A stretch of DNA of 64,000 nt from Mycoplasmatota bacterium (GTDB taxonomy: Bacteria > Bacillota_I > Bacilli_A > Izemoplasmatales > Hujiaoplasmataceae): contig JAEIOE010000006.1 in assembly GCA_016342455.1 (NCBI GenBank), positions 1 to 64,000 on the forward strand. Reading direction: 5' to 3'. Position numbers and translations under genes: made by a program. This document shows positions 51,707 through 59,035 of the stretch, in pieces. Position 1 is the stretch's first letter. Each line of letters starts with the position of its first letter. The notes under the pieces are model-generated. The model saw only the letters and a program-made list of their open reading frames with translations. It was not told the origin of the DNA and made no database searches.

Positions 51707-53050
51707 TTAGATTTCTTTTGCATATTTATTATTTAAATACCATATAATAACTACCGTTACTCCAATGGAACAAAATATATATAAAGATAAAATACCTACT
51801 TTAGATATTAATATACCTGCAATTAATCCAGCAATAGGGATTAAGGCTTGTGATAAAACACCCGTAACGCTCTGAACTTTCCCTAAATGTTCTGCATCTA
51901 CTGTCTTCTGTATCGTTACACCTACAGGAACATTGAAGCCAACACTTGCGAAGCCCATAATAAACAATAATAATACAATTGCTATTAGCAATACGTTTAC
52001 ATTTAGTAATTCTAGATAATACAAAATCATCACTGTACTAATAAGTACTAAAACCAAAATAAATACAACCAAATACTTAGACATTTCTTTAAAATACTTT
52101 TTTTTCGGCTCGCGTCTAGATAAAACAATTGCCATTATTATTCCAGATATCGATGCAGAAATCATAATTACAGAATACCAATTTTCTACTGTCATGAAGT
52201 TATCAAATAAAAATGATGTTTCCGATGAGAGCCCAAACTCTATAAAATACGGAAGTCCATTTTGAAATATTGGGACTGTAAAAAAGTTTAAAAATAAGGC
52301 CATCATTAATAAAACAAAAATAGGTTTAAAATTATATACATATTTTACTCCAACAACGATATCCTTTACTATTCCTTTTAACGTCATTTTTCCAATTGCG
52401 GCTTTGACATTATACTTGATAAACATTTCTGTTATCGCAGAAATCAAATATGCAATACCACAAATGAAAAAAATCACATAAATCCCTAATATAGCGTATA
52501 ATATTCCCCCAAATATCAAGCCTATGATATTTTGAAGATTCCTGGATCCATTTAAATAACTAGAAGCTTGCTGCAATTCTTCATCTTTCACAATAAACTT
52601 TAACAAAGATCCTGCAGCGGGATTAAAGAACGCTGAATTAATACCTAAAATAATTGCTAGGCAAAAGATAATAAGTATCTTTGTTTCGGGACTATTAGAT
52701 AGATATAATACAAATCCAGCAGATAAGATAATCACACCTCTAATGTAATCTGTTATATACATCGTTTTTGCTTTATTAAATCTATCTGCTAAAGCTCCAC
52801 CAAATGGCATTAAAATCAATAATACAATGCCGGAAACTAATAAATAGTAACCTTGAATCAAAGGTGCTTCTTCTGCTCCAAACGCTTCCTTAGCTATTCT
52901 TAATATGTATAGACTCATTACGAAATTAAAAAGCATAAAAGCTATATTCGAAACTAAAACTCCGCTAAATAATAAAGCGAAGTTTTTATTTTTAAATACG
53001 TTTTGTCTTGGTGCTATTTGATTATCCACGTAATGTCTCCTCGGTCGCAA
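51707..53050 (-). CDS. MFS transporter
   Basis: 12-TM-type sequence, MPFGGALADRFNKAKTMYITDYIRG MFS loop motif. Confidence 0.9.
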   Translation of the reverse strand: MRPRRHYVDNQIAPRQNVFKNKNFALLFSGVLVSNIAFMLFNFVMSLYILRIAKEAFGAEEAPLIQGYYLLVSGIVLLILMPFGGALADRFNKAKTMYITDYIRGVIILSAGFVLYLSNSPETKILIIFCLAIILGINSAFFNPAAGSLLKFIVKDEELQQASSYLNGSRNLQNIIGLIFGGILYAILGIYVIFFICGIAYLISAITEMFIKYNVKAAIGKMTLKGIVKDIVVGVKYVYNFKPIFVLLMMALFLNFFTVPIFQNGLPYFIEFGLSSETSFLFDNFMTVENWYSVIMISASISGIIMAIVLSRREPKKKYFKEMSKYLVVFILVLVLISTVMILYYLELLNVNVLLIAIVLLLFIMGFASVGFNVPVGVTIQKTVDAEHLGKVQSVTGVLSQALIPIAGLIAGILISKVGILSLYIFCSIGVTVVIIWYLNNKYAKEI

Positions 53051-53051
53051 A

Positions 53052-53438
53052 TTATTCTACTACTATTCTAACTACATCTCCGTCGGCTGATTTAACATTA
53101 ACTATTTCGCCTACAACTCCTGTATTAATCATTTGAATTAACATATCGATATCAATGTCTAAATCATCTGAATCAAAATGAGTCATCTTACTATTCTTTA
53201 AAAGTTTAGCAAATTCAATTGGCAATTCTACTCTAACTTCGTCCCCATCAGCTGAATCAACTAATATTTTTAACATTTTAAATTGATTCTTCTTTTTAGC
53301 TGGCATAATAACTTCTGGTTCTACTTCGTTAGCACCAATAGAAGCTAAAAGTTTTTCTGCTTCGTCTGCAGTAATTACTCCCTTAGAAAGTAATTCTAAT
53401 ATTTTCATTCTTTCTTCTTTAAATTCATTTTTTCCCAT
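53052..53438 (-). CDS. SHOCT/YvlB-like short-helix domain protein
   Basis: MKILELLSKGVITADEAEKLLASIG; true start may be the internal MKILELL. Confidence 0.75.
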   Translation of the reverse strand: MGKNEFKEERMKILELLSKGVITADEAEKLLASIGANEVEPEVIMPAKKKNQFKMLKILVDSADGDEVRVELPIEFAKLLKNSKMTHFDSDDLDIDIDMLIQMINTGVVGEIVNVKSADGDVVRIVVE

Positions 53439-53449
53439 GATAATCCCCC

Positions 53450-53920
53450 TTATCTAACCTTCGCTAATAATTCAGAAGCTTCTGAAACCGTAATTTCTCC
53501 GCTATCTATTTTTTGTAATATTTCAACTCTAGTTGGTCCATTGTATTCTTCTTTTACAACTTCTTTTTCTTCTTCGGCATTTGTTGTATATCCAAGCTGT
53601 TCAATTACTTCATCAAGCATTTTTTTAATTGTTGGATAAGATAATCCCATTTCTTTTTCGATCATCTTAATGTTTCCTCTATTTTTAACAAACACTTCAA
53701 TAAAGAAAAGTTTTTCGGTATCTAAATAGTTGAACTTAGATAATGTAAATTTTCCCTTAAACTCTGTTTCACAATTTGTACATTTGAGTTCTGTAACAAA
53801 TAAATCATTGTGACAAATTGGACACTCAGAGATAACTGGATATTTAGCTACTCCCTTAGTTGCTGATTTTGTTAGTCTTTTTAGGATATCTAAATCCTTA
53901 TCAATTTTAAATTTAGCCAT
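53450..53920 (-). CDS. DUF2089-like zinc-ribbon/HTH protein
   Basis: CPICHNDLFVTELKCTNCETEFKG...MGLSYPTIKKMLDEVIEQLGY; C-terminal VEILQKIDSGEITVSEASELLAKVR. Confidence 0.85.
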   Translation of the reverse strand: MAKFKIDKDLDILKRLTKSATKGVAKYPVISECPICHNDLFVTELKCTNCETEFKGKFTLSKFNYLDTEKLFFIEVFVKNRGNIKMIEKEMGLSYPTIKKMLDEVIEQLGYTTNAEEEKEVVKEEYNGPTRVEILQKIDSGEITVSEASELLAKVR

Positions 53921-53933
53921 ATTAAATCTCCTT

Positions 53934-54725
53934 CTATATAGTTTTCACTACAATCTTTTCTCCAGATTTAGTGTTTACATCAATATTTATTCCTTTGCTT
54001 GTGATCAATTTTAATATTTCAGCTTTATCAAGTGAAATATTATCTTTGTATTTTTCCTCTTTCACAAACATCAATATAAATCTTACAATAAATATTGGAA
54101 ATGGAAAGAAAAACAATACTTTTAATATTCGATTCGCGGTTTTATCTTCCGGAACATTAATTTTCAATTTAATAAAGTGCGCTTTTCTTGTTAATTGCAT
54201 TTTTCTTCTTTTTTTCTTGTATAACTCTTTGTATGCTGCTTCTGTTGAAATTTCATTTGTCTGAAGCCTTGCTAATGTGTTTGAAGTCATCTCTGTTTTT
54301 CCCCTTCTATTATTTATTAAAAATAGTAATAAGCTAGAGATTGTATAAGGTACAAAATCATATAAGATCGCATCAAATACACTTGGTCCCCTGTTTTCTG
54401 CATATATTTGTATTGCTTCATCTGAAAAAGCAACTATCATTCCGATTATCAGTATTCTAAAATATGATAAGTTCCATAATTTCCCTGTTATGAACCAAGA
54501 TATCCCTAAAACGAAATATTCAAACATATGCGCTGATTTTCTTATTACTATATGTAAATCTGCTATTAGGATACTATTGTTTGGAAATACATCGGTTATT
54601 ATATTTAAAATAAAATTTGATATTTCCAAGCTCAATGATCCTGATTGTTCTCCGGTTGCGAAGGAAAATGAAAATACGATAAGTGTTAAAACTGATGATA
54701 CTATTAAACTAATTTTTTTCATCAA
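53934..54725 (-). CDS. VanZ-like membrane protein fused to a short-helix/YvlB-like C-terminal domain
   Basis: N-terminal HIVIRKSAHMFEYFVLGI VanZ-like; C-terminal LARLQTNEISTEAAYKELYK...INIDVNTKSGEKIVVKTI. Confidence 0.75.
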   Translation of the reverse strand: MMKKISLIVSSVLTLIVFSFSFATGEQSGSLSLEISNFILNIITDVFPNNSILIADLHIVIRKSAHMFEYFVLGISWFITGKLWNLSYFRILIIGMIVAFSDEAIQIYAENRGPSVFDAILYDFVPYTISSLLLFLINNRRGKTEMTSNTLARLQTNEISTEAAYKELYKKKRRKMQLTRKAHFIKLKINVPEDKTANRILKVLFFFPFPIFIVRFILMFVKEEKYKDNISLDKAEILKLITSKGINIDVNTKSGEKIVVKTI

Positions 54726-54797
54726 ACCACCCCTTTATATGAATTATAAAATAATTCATAAGTTGTACTTTCAAATCCCTTGCATTTCCAGAAGAAT

Positions 54798-54920
54798 TTA
54801 ATTGAATTTTTGTTGTGAATAAAAGCTTTGCCAATAATTGTTTGGACCAGAATAGTCATAACATTTATTACAATCCTTATTATTCTCTGCTATATGTTGA
54901 ATTTTACTTGATCTTTTCAT
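54798..54920 (-). CDS. Unannotated 40-aa microprotein MKRSSKIQHIAENNKDCNKCYDYSGPNNYWQSFYSQQKFN
   Basis: Manual minus-strand translation; SD-like AGGGG upstream of ATG; paralogous to 54976-55113. Confidence 0.8.
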   Translation of the reverse strand: MKRSSKIQHIAENNKDCNKCYDYSGPNNYWQSFYSQQKFN

Positions 54921-54975
54921 CTTTAAATCCCCTTTCTGAATCTTTTTAATAATTGTTTCTTTTTATGCAATAAAT

Positions 54976-55113
54976 TTATCCCTTGATTGTGTGTTGTATT
55001 TCATTTTGTGCGAAAAAGCTTTGCCAGTAATTTGTTGGGCTTGAATAGTCATAACAATTACCACAGTTTTTTTTCGTTTGTTCCATGCTTTGTAGCTTTC
55101 TTATATTTCTCAT
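54976..55113 (-). CDS. Unannotated 45-aa microprotein MRNIRKLQSMEQTKKNCGNCYDYSSPTNYWQSFFAQNEIQHTIKG
   Basis: Manual minus-strand translation; strong SD GGGAGGGGG upstream of ATG; paralogous to 54798-54920. Confidence 0.8.
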   Translation of the reverse strand: MRNIRKLQSMEQTKKNCGNCYDYSSPTNYWQSFFAQNEIQHTIKG

Positions 55114-55156
55114 TTCAAATCCCCCTCCCGAATTCTATTTTCCCTTTTTAAATGTG

Positions 55157-55187: not shown

Positions 55188-55371
55188 TATTATATTGATT
55201 TCGCATTTAAATTCGAACTTTTAAATTGATTTTGTTAACTTACACCTTAATTATATCAATATTTTTAATAATGTCAAGGGGTTTTTTAATTTATTTTACA
55301 AATTTATTAAAAAAAGCCAATAAAATTGACTTTTTCCTTAATATTATTAATAATTTTATTGATTTTGTTGA

Positions 55372-57339
55372 TTATCTCTTTAAATATCCCTTTAATTCGA
55401 ATATTACATCTCGTAACTCTGCAGCCTTCTCAAAATCTAATTCCTTGGCATAAACATACATTTGTTTTTCTAACATGTCTATATTTTCTTGCAGTTCTCT
55501 TTGAGATAATTTATTAAAATCATCTACATCTTCTTTCGCATCTGATTTAATTGATATTCTATCATGTATATCTTTAAGGATAGTTGTTGGTTCTATATTA
55601 TGATCTATATTATATTGTTTTTGAATAGTTCTTCTACGATTAGTTTCATCTATCGCCTTAGTCATAGAGTCTGTTGTCTTGGATGCGTACATAATTACTT
55701 TACCATTACTGTTCCTTGCTGCTCTACCAATAATTTGAATTAATGATTTTGCAGATCTTAAGAAACCTTCTTTATCTGCATCCAATATCGTAATTAAGGA
55801 AACCTCTGGTAAATCCAATCCTTCTCTTAGTAAGTTTATCCCAACTAAGATATCATAAGTTCCAAGTCTTAGCTTTCTAATTACTTCCATTCTATCAAGT
55901 GATTTGATTTTAGAATGCAAATACGCAACCTTATAACCCAGACCTTTTAAATATTCAGTTAAATCCTCACTCATCTTTATGGTAAGTGTTGTAATCAGTA
56001 TTCTTTCATTTCTTTGTATTGTTTTATCTACTTCTATAAGAAGATCATCTATTTGGTTTTCTGTTTTTCTAACAAAAACTTGAGGGTCTAATAGCCCTGT
56101 AGGCCTAATAATTTGTTCTATTACATCAGGTGCTCTTTCTAATTCATAATCACCAGGAGTAGCTGAAGCATAGATAACTTGATTAATCTTGTCTTTAAAT
56201 TCGCCAAAATTTAGTGGCCTATTGTCTAATGCACTAGGTAATCTAAAACCATAATTAACCAAAGATTGCTTACGAGCTCTATCTCCATTATACATTCCTC
56301 TAACTTGAGGCAAGGTTACGTGAGATTCATCTACAACCAGTAAGAAGTCTTTTGGGAAGAAATCCATTAGTGTAGAAGGTGTTTCCCCTTCTCCCCTTAA
56401 AGAAAGATGTCTTGAATAATTCTCAACCCCTGGACAACGGCCCATTTCTTTTAGAAGCTCTAAATCATACATAGTTCTTTGTTCAATTCTTTCAGCTTCT
56501 AATAAGTGGTTTTGATCTTTAAAGTGCTTAATGCGGTCTATTAACTCTGATTTGATTCTTCTTAAGGCTTCATCCATTTTAATTGGGTCTGTTAAAAAAT
56601 GAGATGCAGGAAATAAGGAGAACACATCATACTCTTTAATAATTTCACCCGAAACAATATGAAATTCTCTAATTCTATTGATTACATCAAAATCAAATTC
56701 AACTCTAATAGCGATGGTTTTATTATAAGGCGGCAATATTTCTACAACATCTCCCCTTACTCTAAAACTACCTCTAACGAAGTCTAAATCATTTCTAACA
56801 TACTGGATATCAACCAAACGGTCAAGGAGCTCTTTTCTAGTGATTTCATCATTTTTTCTTAAGGTTACCATTCCTGATTTATAGGTATCAGGATCTCCAA
56901 TACCATATATACAAGATACAGAAGCTACGATAATTACATCTCTTCTTTCAAACAAGCTTGATGTAGCGGCGTGTCTCATCTCATCTATTTCATCATTAAT
57001 TTTAGCATCTTTTTCTATATATATATCCGCACCGGGTATATATGCTTCTGGTTGATAATAATCATAATAGGAGATAAAATATTCAACTCTGTTTTCTGGA
57101 AACAGTGATTTTAACTCTGAATAGAGTTGCCCCGCTAAGGTCTTATTATGAGCTAAGACCAATACCGGTCTATTAACCTCATTAATAACGTTAGCTATTG
57201 TATAGGTTTTACCTGTACCAGTAGCTCCTAAAAGTACCTGTTCTTTTACGTTATTATTTAAATTATTAATCAGTTTTTTAATTGCAGACGGTTGATCACC
57301 TTTAGGCAAGTATTCCGATACAAGTTTGAATTTATCCAT
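55372..57339 (-). CDS. uvrB: Excinuclease ABC subunit UvrB
   Basis: [47 protein letters not shown]-terminal UVR domain. Confidence 0.98.
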
Positions 57340-57421: not shown

Positions 57422-59035
57422 ATGAAAGTAATTTTAATCGGAATAAACTCTAAGTATATTCACACAAATCTAGCTATTCGATACTTGAAAGTTAATTGTG
57501 ATTATCCAGTAACACTTAAAGAATTTACAATTAAGGATAGTATCTCTAAAATAATGGATGGTATTATGGAAGAAGAGCCTGATATCATCGGTTTTAGCGT
57601 ATATATTTGGAATATAGAAATAATAAAAGAACTTTTAAATATTATCAAAACGAAATATAAAAACAAAACTGTTATATTGGGTGGTCCTGAAGTAAGTTAT
57701 GAATATAATGAGTTTCTTGATTTAAAACTGGCAAAGTATATTATCTTTAATGAAGGTGAAATAGCCTTCAATAAACTAATAGATGCTTTGGTCAATAATA
57801 AGGACATTTCTGGAATACCAAATCTATCTTATTATAAGGATAATAATATAATAAGGAATCGCGCGCAAGAAATACAAGACTTAAACAGCTTAAAAAATCC
57901 TTACAAATTAGATAATGAAGATATAAAAAACAAGATACAATATATTGAATTATCTAGGGGTTGCCCTTATAGTTGTTCTTACTGTATGGCTTCATTAGAA
58001 AAAACTGTAAGATTTTTTGATATAAATAGAGTTAAACAAGATATTCAATTTTTATATAAGAATGGAGCGAAAACTTTTAAGTTTTTGGATCGAACCTTTA
58101 ATCTAAAAGCAGAAATGGCACTCGATATTTATAAATTTGTTATTGAGAATGATTTTAAAAACGCTGTCTTTCAATTTGAAATTAATGGTGATATTTTAAA
58201 AGAAAGTGTATTAGATTATTTAGTAGAAAAAGCTCCAAAGAATCGTATCCGTTTTGAAATTGGGATTCAATCAACTAACAATTCAGTCAATTTAGCAGTT
58301 GATAGACAACAAGATAATGGAAAACTATTTAAAAACATTCATAAATTAAACACTTCTATGGTCGACATGCATTTAGATTTGATAGCTGGCTTACCTTATG
58401 AAGACTATGACAGCTTCAAGAATACCTTTAATACAGCGTTTAAGCTTTATGCTAAAGAACTACAACTAGGATTCTTAAAACTGCTTAAGGGGACGAAATT
58501 ATACTATCAAGCGCGAGAATTTGGTTACCGAGTACATGAAGTTGCACCATATGAGCTAATTGATAACCAATTTATCACAAAAGAGGAACTCTATAAGATA
58601 CATATCGTTGAAGAAGCGTTAGAAATATATTGGAACAAAGGTTTTCTAAATAGAACAACCGCCTTAATAACGAAAGACTTAGCGTCTCCTTTTGATTTCT
58701 TCTTAGAATTAGGAAATCATTTCATACAAAATGATTTGTCATTCCATCGATATCAATTATTTGACATCTTTCAAACCTTAGAAGATTTCCTTGGAGATAG
58801 TTATAAGTATGATATACGCTATGATTATTTAGATTACAATAATATAAAACCTAAAATTTACTGGGACAACCCGGTCAAGAAAAATGATGTCATTAGACTT
58901 TTCCATAAAGAAAACCCTCATTACAACATAGATGTATTATATAAATATTCCGTTGTTATTGAATATATGTTTGATTACTTAATCGTTTTATACCTGCCAA
59001 ACAAAAAAGAAATGCATATATTTAAAAAGAACTAA
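57422..59035 (+). CDS. B12-binding-domain radical SAM protein (DUF4080-like)
   Basis: Cobalamin-binding-like N-terminus; radical SAM Cys motif SRGCPYSCSYCMAS; C-terminal DUF4080-like region. Confidence 0.9.
   Translation: MKVILIGINSKYIHTNLAIRYLKVNCDYPVTLKEFTIKDSISKIMDGIMEEEPDIIGFSVYIWNIEIIKELLNIIKTKYKNKTVILGGPEVSYEYNEFLDLKLAKYIIFNEGEIAFNKLIDALVNNKDISGIPNLSYYKDNNIIRNRAQEIQDLNSLKNPYKLDNEDIKNKIQYIELSRGCPYSCSYCMASLEKTVRFFDINRVKQDIQFLYKNGAKTFKFLDRTFNLKAEMALDIYKFVIENDFKNAVFQFEINGDILKESVLDYLVEKAPKNRIRFEIGIQSTNNSVNLAVDRQQDNGKLFKNIHKLNTSMVDMHLDLIAGLPYEDYDSFKNTFNTAFKLYAKELQLGFLKLLKGTKLYYQAREFGYRVHEVAPYELIDNQFITKEELYKIHIVEEALEIYWNKGFLNRTTALITKDLASPFDFFLELGNHFIQNDLSFHRYQLFDIFQTLEDFLGDSYKYDIRYDYLDYNNIKPKIYWDNPVKKNDVIRLFHKENPHYNIDVLYKYSVVIEYMFDYLIVLYLPNKKEMHIFKKN

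Follow-up and report, generated by a model that had tools for sequence, protein, structure and literature searches.

What is encoded in the 646 bp that separate uvrB from a VanZ-like gene, a gap that standard annotation, skipping ORFs this small, leaves empty? Read on the minus strand of the window (the whole stretch of 64,000 nucleotides that was analysed), this gap holds two unannotated microORFs, which we refer to as YW microproteins A and B (Table 1). The first-pass annotation had described them as tandem paralogues, each with its own purine-rich Shine-Dalgarno sequence (SD); the translations were exact, both ORFs start with ATG, both SDs were found and are strong, and the ungapped identity of 13 of 17 residues over positions 17-33 was reproduced. 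A genome-wide search with one window copy returned the other as its sole match (E 1.5e-10), so the similarity between A and B is not due to chance. The pair gave a pS of 0.64, a pN of 0.31 and a dN/dS of 0.27 (Nei-Gojobori method, as for the other pairwise values below), which bears out the proposed selection at the protein level, and tandem paralogy extends across the whole family. Judged by their sequences, both microORFs are real, look translated and are selected as protein.

Table 1. Features of the microORF locus and its operon (positions in the window)
Feature	Position	Strand	Description
YW microprotein A	54976..55113	minus	45 aa, ATG start, MRNIRKLQSMEQTKKNCGNCYDYSSPTNYWQSFFAQNEIQHTIKG
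YW microprotein B	54798..54920	minus	40 aa, ATG start, MKRSSKIQHIAENNKDCNKCYDYSGPNNYWQSFYSQQKFN
Shine-Dalgarno of A	55121..55129	minus	GGGAGGGGG, purine-rich
Shine-Dalgarno of B	54929..54935	minus	AAAGGGG, purine-rich
Core motif of A	55015..55038	minus	P26-F33 = PTNYWQSF; basis: family position counts
Core motif of B	54822..54845	minus	P26-F33 = PNNYWQSF; basis: family position counts
Operon promoter	55250..55277	minus	TTGACA-16-TATAAT, 12/12 consensus matches
Promoter-proximal element, candidate operator	55235..55255	minus	TATAATTAAGGTGTAAGTTAA, single in the window's genome
Hairpin	54739..54759	minus	ATGAATTAT-TTT-ATAATTCAT, just 5' of the VanZ SD
VanZ-like gene	53934..54722	minus	ATG at 54722; C-terminal SHOCT-like/membrane half; first gene after the microORFs
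DUF2089 protein	53450..53920	minus	zinc ribbon-HTH-SHOCT-like
SHOCT-like protein	53052..53438	minus	
MFS transporter	51707..53050	minus	best NCBIfam match TIGR00900, below cut-off; in some family loci only
uvrB	55372..57339	minus	constant upstream neighbour, synteny marker

All four other genomes of the same genus have homologues, as do two more genera within a single family. A profile built from A and B retrieved orthologues in G002, G003 and G004, each with a single copy in the same place as in the window, while the fifth genome of the genus, G001, carries a diverged copy at the uvrB-VanZ locus (a match at G001:C88 proved false). In other genera the same slot contains two ORFs in G009, G017, G021, G023, G027, G028 and G031, three in G030 and four in G014. 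With a 26-sequence profile we also found copies outside the uvrB-VanZ slot: one to three head an MFS-ArsR operon in G021, G023, G027, G028 and G032, and G030 has two copies before a truncated VanZ gene and two ABC exporters, beside a LytTR/histidine-kinase pair, as well as one further copy that closes an unrelated operon and has no gene downstream. The 40 copies collected, 30-50 aa each, form arrays of one to four, and nearly all of them follow a promoter and precede the operon's first gene for a polytopic membrane protein. In three genera the main locus has been inherited vertically and keeps its syntenic site, and orthologues of two distinct paralogue types are shared by five species of one genus. 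The first-pass annotation had named three checks, for homologues in relatives, for frameshifts or stops and for dN/dS near 1, and none of them refuted the proposal; beside these orthologues and arrays we found frames intact across many genomes, and dN/dS was 0.15-0.62 in ordinary homologue pairs.

Presence of the microproteins is optional. The SHOCT/DUF2089 operon of sister genera g2 and g8 begins without a microORF, in genera g3, g7, g9 and g10 the slot is filled by unrelated or barely related small ORFs, and the MFS-ArsR operons of G014 and G008 have none. All carriers with named records belong to Ca. Izemoplasmatales (Izemoplasmatales/Tenericutes genomes). Two class scans of about 400 genomes returned only weak, unconvincing matches beyond this bacterial family; a match in G116 was inspected and rejected, and a viral origin was discarded, no relative being present among viral contigs. 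Searches of Pfam, NCBIfam, PHROG, PDB and Rfam gave no relative of the YW microproteins, only isolated weak matches, and the family appears to be undescribed in these libraries.

The first-pass annotation had placed a conserved CxxC in the core. CxxC is indeed present in both A and B, but the Cys pair is absent from G003 and G004 and CxxC is missing from most of the wider family. The family core is instead [C/S/N]-P-x-E-Y-W-x-Q-[F/V/L], also P-x-x-Y-W-x-[QS]-[FVL], with W at 37 of 39 sequences, Y at 34 of 39 and a hydrophobic residue at W+3 in 37 of 39. Pooled dN/dS was lowest in the core (0.20), rising to 0.28 for the N-terminal part and 0.40 for the tail; single values are rough because the sequences are short, and one near-identical pair within G030 differs too little to be assessed. 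The highest value, 0.71, belongs to the G030 copy without a downstream gene. AlphaFold2, run on eight sequences, gave two helices, 3-15 and 26-43, the second beginning at the conserved Pro, with a pLDDT of about 86 in the core and a mean of 70.8, so that with modest confidence the predicted fold suits a capped aromatic helix. The copies are strongly hydrophilic (median GRAVY -1.23, no 15-residue stretch above 0.9), carry a median net charge of +3 and have no signal-like hydrophobic stretch.

In the window the microORFs lead an operon whose sigma-70-type promoter matches the consensus perfectly and lies ~140-165 bp upstream of the first microORF. Directly downstream of its -10 lies the element TATAATTAAGGTGTAAGTTAA, a candidate operator of the DUF2089 operon; its AAGGTG[TC]A motif is kept at most loci, with or without microproteins (L033-L035, L077, L084, L085), and occurs just once in the window's genome; the element therefore appears to be a control site belonging to the operon itself rather than a part of the microproteins. 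Its use as a regulon marker was rejected, as there is one site in the whole genome. With its DUF2089/SHOCT genes the operon downstream of the microORFs resembles lia/PSP-like membrane-stress operons, which likewise encode a zinc ribbon-HTH-SHOCT DUF2089 protein, SHOCT-like proteins and membrane proteins; the text consulted on these operons (PMC11237479) mentions no operon-leading microproteins. At most VanZ loci with microproteins the operon has no exporter, an MFS or ABC transporter being present at some loci of the family. Palindromic ATTAGATA-N-TATCTAAT-like repeats surround the promoter of the MFS-ArsR operons (L038, L198, L202, L207, L208) and are likely an ArsR-type operator.

How might peptides of this kind act? 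We tentatively favour, at somewhat less than even probability, the explanation that the YW microproteins are soluble, helical accessory microproteins acting on the envelope or efflux output of their own operon. They would be the first products translated from an envelope-stress or efflux mRNA, and their core, beginning with cap residue-Pro-x-Glu, would start a helix that bears Tyr-Trp and the hydrophobic residue at W+3. This aromatic helix may dock on a protein or a membrane-proximal surface, and the docked microprotein would tune, in either direction, the amount or activity of the envelope or efflux proteins encoded just downstream. A protein acting as such is favoured by the constant peptide in a changing RNA context, by selection along the entire chain, by the joint maintenance of paralogue types and by the one copy without a downstream gene. 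The predicted helix starting at the conserved Pro, the hydrophobic W+3 and the resemblance to lia/PSP-like operons count in its favour too. Against it, no common protein partner is evident across the differing VanZ, MFS and ABC loci; the arrays keep to the operon's 5' slot, as cis-acting leaders do; the slot is empty or holds unrelated small ORFs in sister genera; the copy lacking a downstream gene has the highest dN/dS; and the mean pLDDT is modest. The small protein AcrZ, likewise tied to efflux, offers a functional analogy only: AcrZ is a membrane protein that modulates an efflux pump, in contrast to the hydrophilic YW microproteins.

The arrays could alternatively be cis-acting leader peptides, where a ribosome slowed or arrested by its nascent YW peptide, or a need for the leader to be translated, sets translation or stability of the downstream envelope/efflux mRNA, with tandem copies adding sites. 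The erm and cat leaders and BmrB of bmrCD are the models for such control. We regard this as possible but rather unlikely. The fixed 5' position in unrelated operons, the coupling to the next gene and the relaxed isolated copy favour it: all but one copy (translation being predicted) lie 5' of the putatively regulated gene on the same mRNA, the host operons each have a different control element, and in G023 and G028 the MFS start follows the microORF stop by 10-11 nt with a weak or absent SD. A hairpin also overlaps or flanks the VanZ SD in 5/5 genomes of the window's genus. In three of them the SD region is paired with differing complementary partners (CACCUC/GAGGUG in G002, UCAUUCC/GGGAGUGA in G004, CACUCU/AGAGUG in G001), and these pairing-preserving changes of partner are suggestive; the window's own hairpin involves the SD only in part. 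SD complementarity is, however, clearly above shuffled sequences in G004 alone (P 0.006; the MAFFT alignment placed the SD hairpins out of register).

Furthermore, the hairpin begins ~40 nt past the microORF stop, which would leave a ribosome at YW too distant to open it, and we found no RNA switch within ribosome reach: no intrinsic terminator was detected in the window, and no common RNA fold emerged across the other loci compared, where the microORF runs up to or into the start of the next gene (several loci at which the automatic start choice failed were given no weight). Selection on the tail after the motif also speaks against a leader. A terminator-like hairpin in G032 adds to the variety of RNA contexts. 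A known RNA leader or riboswitch was rejected, there being no Rfam match up to E 1. In B. subtilis the small leader ORF bmrB controls a multidrug exporter and, like the YW microORFs, lies between a promoter and exporter or envelope membrane-protein genes, but its terminator is within its own coding region (PMC4191407), and the YW loci differ by their several paralogues, conserved peptide motif and variable RNA context.

It also seems improbable that the copies are leaderless-bacteriocin-like or signal peptides, i.e., unmodified peptides active as translated, exported by the neighbouring MFS or ABC transporter, with the VanZ, DUF2089 and SHOCT proteins providing immunity. As an analogy the gene layout is striking, the DUF2089 protein included: leaderless class II clusters such as those of enterocin DD14, thucin A and bawcin have one to four tandem genes for small basic peptides near those for an exporter, membrane proteins and a DUF2089-family protein, and in one of them a hairpin follows the peptide genes (PMC7332713, PMC9484092, PMC10707071). 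The YW genes likewise head their operons as one to four tandem copies for cationic peptides that lack a leader, are 30-50 aa by sequence and are putatively unmodified, and at one G030 locus the kinase/LytTR pair and two ABC exporters stand beside them. The peptides are nevertheless far more hydrophilic than those of enterocin DD14 (GRAVY 0.20 and -0.11; same papers), and despite their positive charge their hydropathy does not fit a cationic amphipathic, membrane-active peptide. No sequence relation to these bacteriocins was found, most VanZ loci with microproteins lack an exporter in the operon, and the stable syntenic locus, inherited vertically, is unlike the sporadic occurrence of bacteriocins.

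The suggestion of RiPP precursors or CxxC metal-binding peptides, prompted by an aromatic-rich core behind a variable N-terminus and by the CxxC of both window copies, has become very improbable: YcaO was found in 0/12 carrier genomes and SPASM in 2/12, the window's genome G000 (98% complete) having none, the operon contains no modification gene, as the first-pass annotation had noted, and the loss of the Cys pair from close orthologues speaks against a metal site. Of the first-pass proposals, that of microproteins stands. A possible likeness to ComX or AgrD was also considered; no ComQ/AgrB-like gene was noticed among the genes of the listed loci. That the ORFs are untranslated or functionless, as their restriction to one lineage might hint, is hardly credible given the range of dN/dS, the SD of each ORF and the intact frames in many genomes.

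The YW microproteins thus form a family under selection that has a defined motif and follows a clear rule of placement, standing optionally and in one to four copies at the head of envelope and efflux operons in free-living relatives of Mollicutes. We hold it possible, though doubtful, that they are peptide modules repeatedly installed in variable copy number in front of envelope-stress and drug-efflux operons that have their own transcription control, sharing a peptide-level control, by nascent chain or small protein, through the PxxYWxQF helix motif. If such peptides control or modulate VanZ, MFS and ABC operons, they would add a new level to the control of the envelope or of drug responses, and the contrasts in presence and absence between sister species make this directly testable.

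Several minor observations concern the loci themselves. A B12-binding radical SAM protein (DUF4080; 57422-59035 in the window) is almost invariably encoded next to uvrB, in divergent orientation, across the family, whether or not microproteins are present. At the G001 locus (L084:5399-5570) VanZ has apparently lost its N-terminal half, the SHOCT-like half alone being kept, and in G027 two YW microORFs ahead of the MFS gene are separated by a putative transposase ORF, IS110-like by eye (L197:4346-5509). In genus g9 (L086:1685-2030, L088:4129-4290), ORFs of 50-54 aa in or near the slot end in NNYWQR, NMFWNK or DSFWNH; two of them share an IPxxPRLLPxGIxN stretch, and they make up another microprotein family, possibly related to the YW microproteins.
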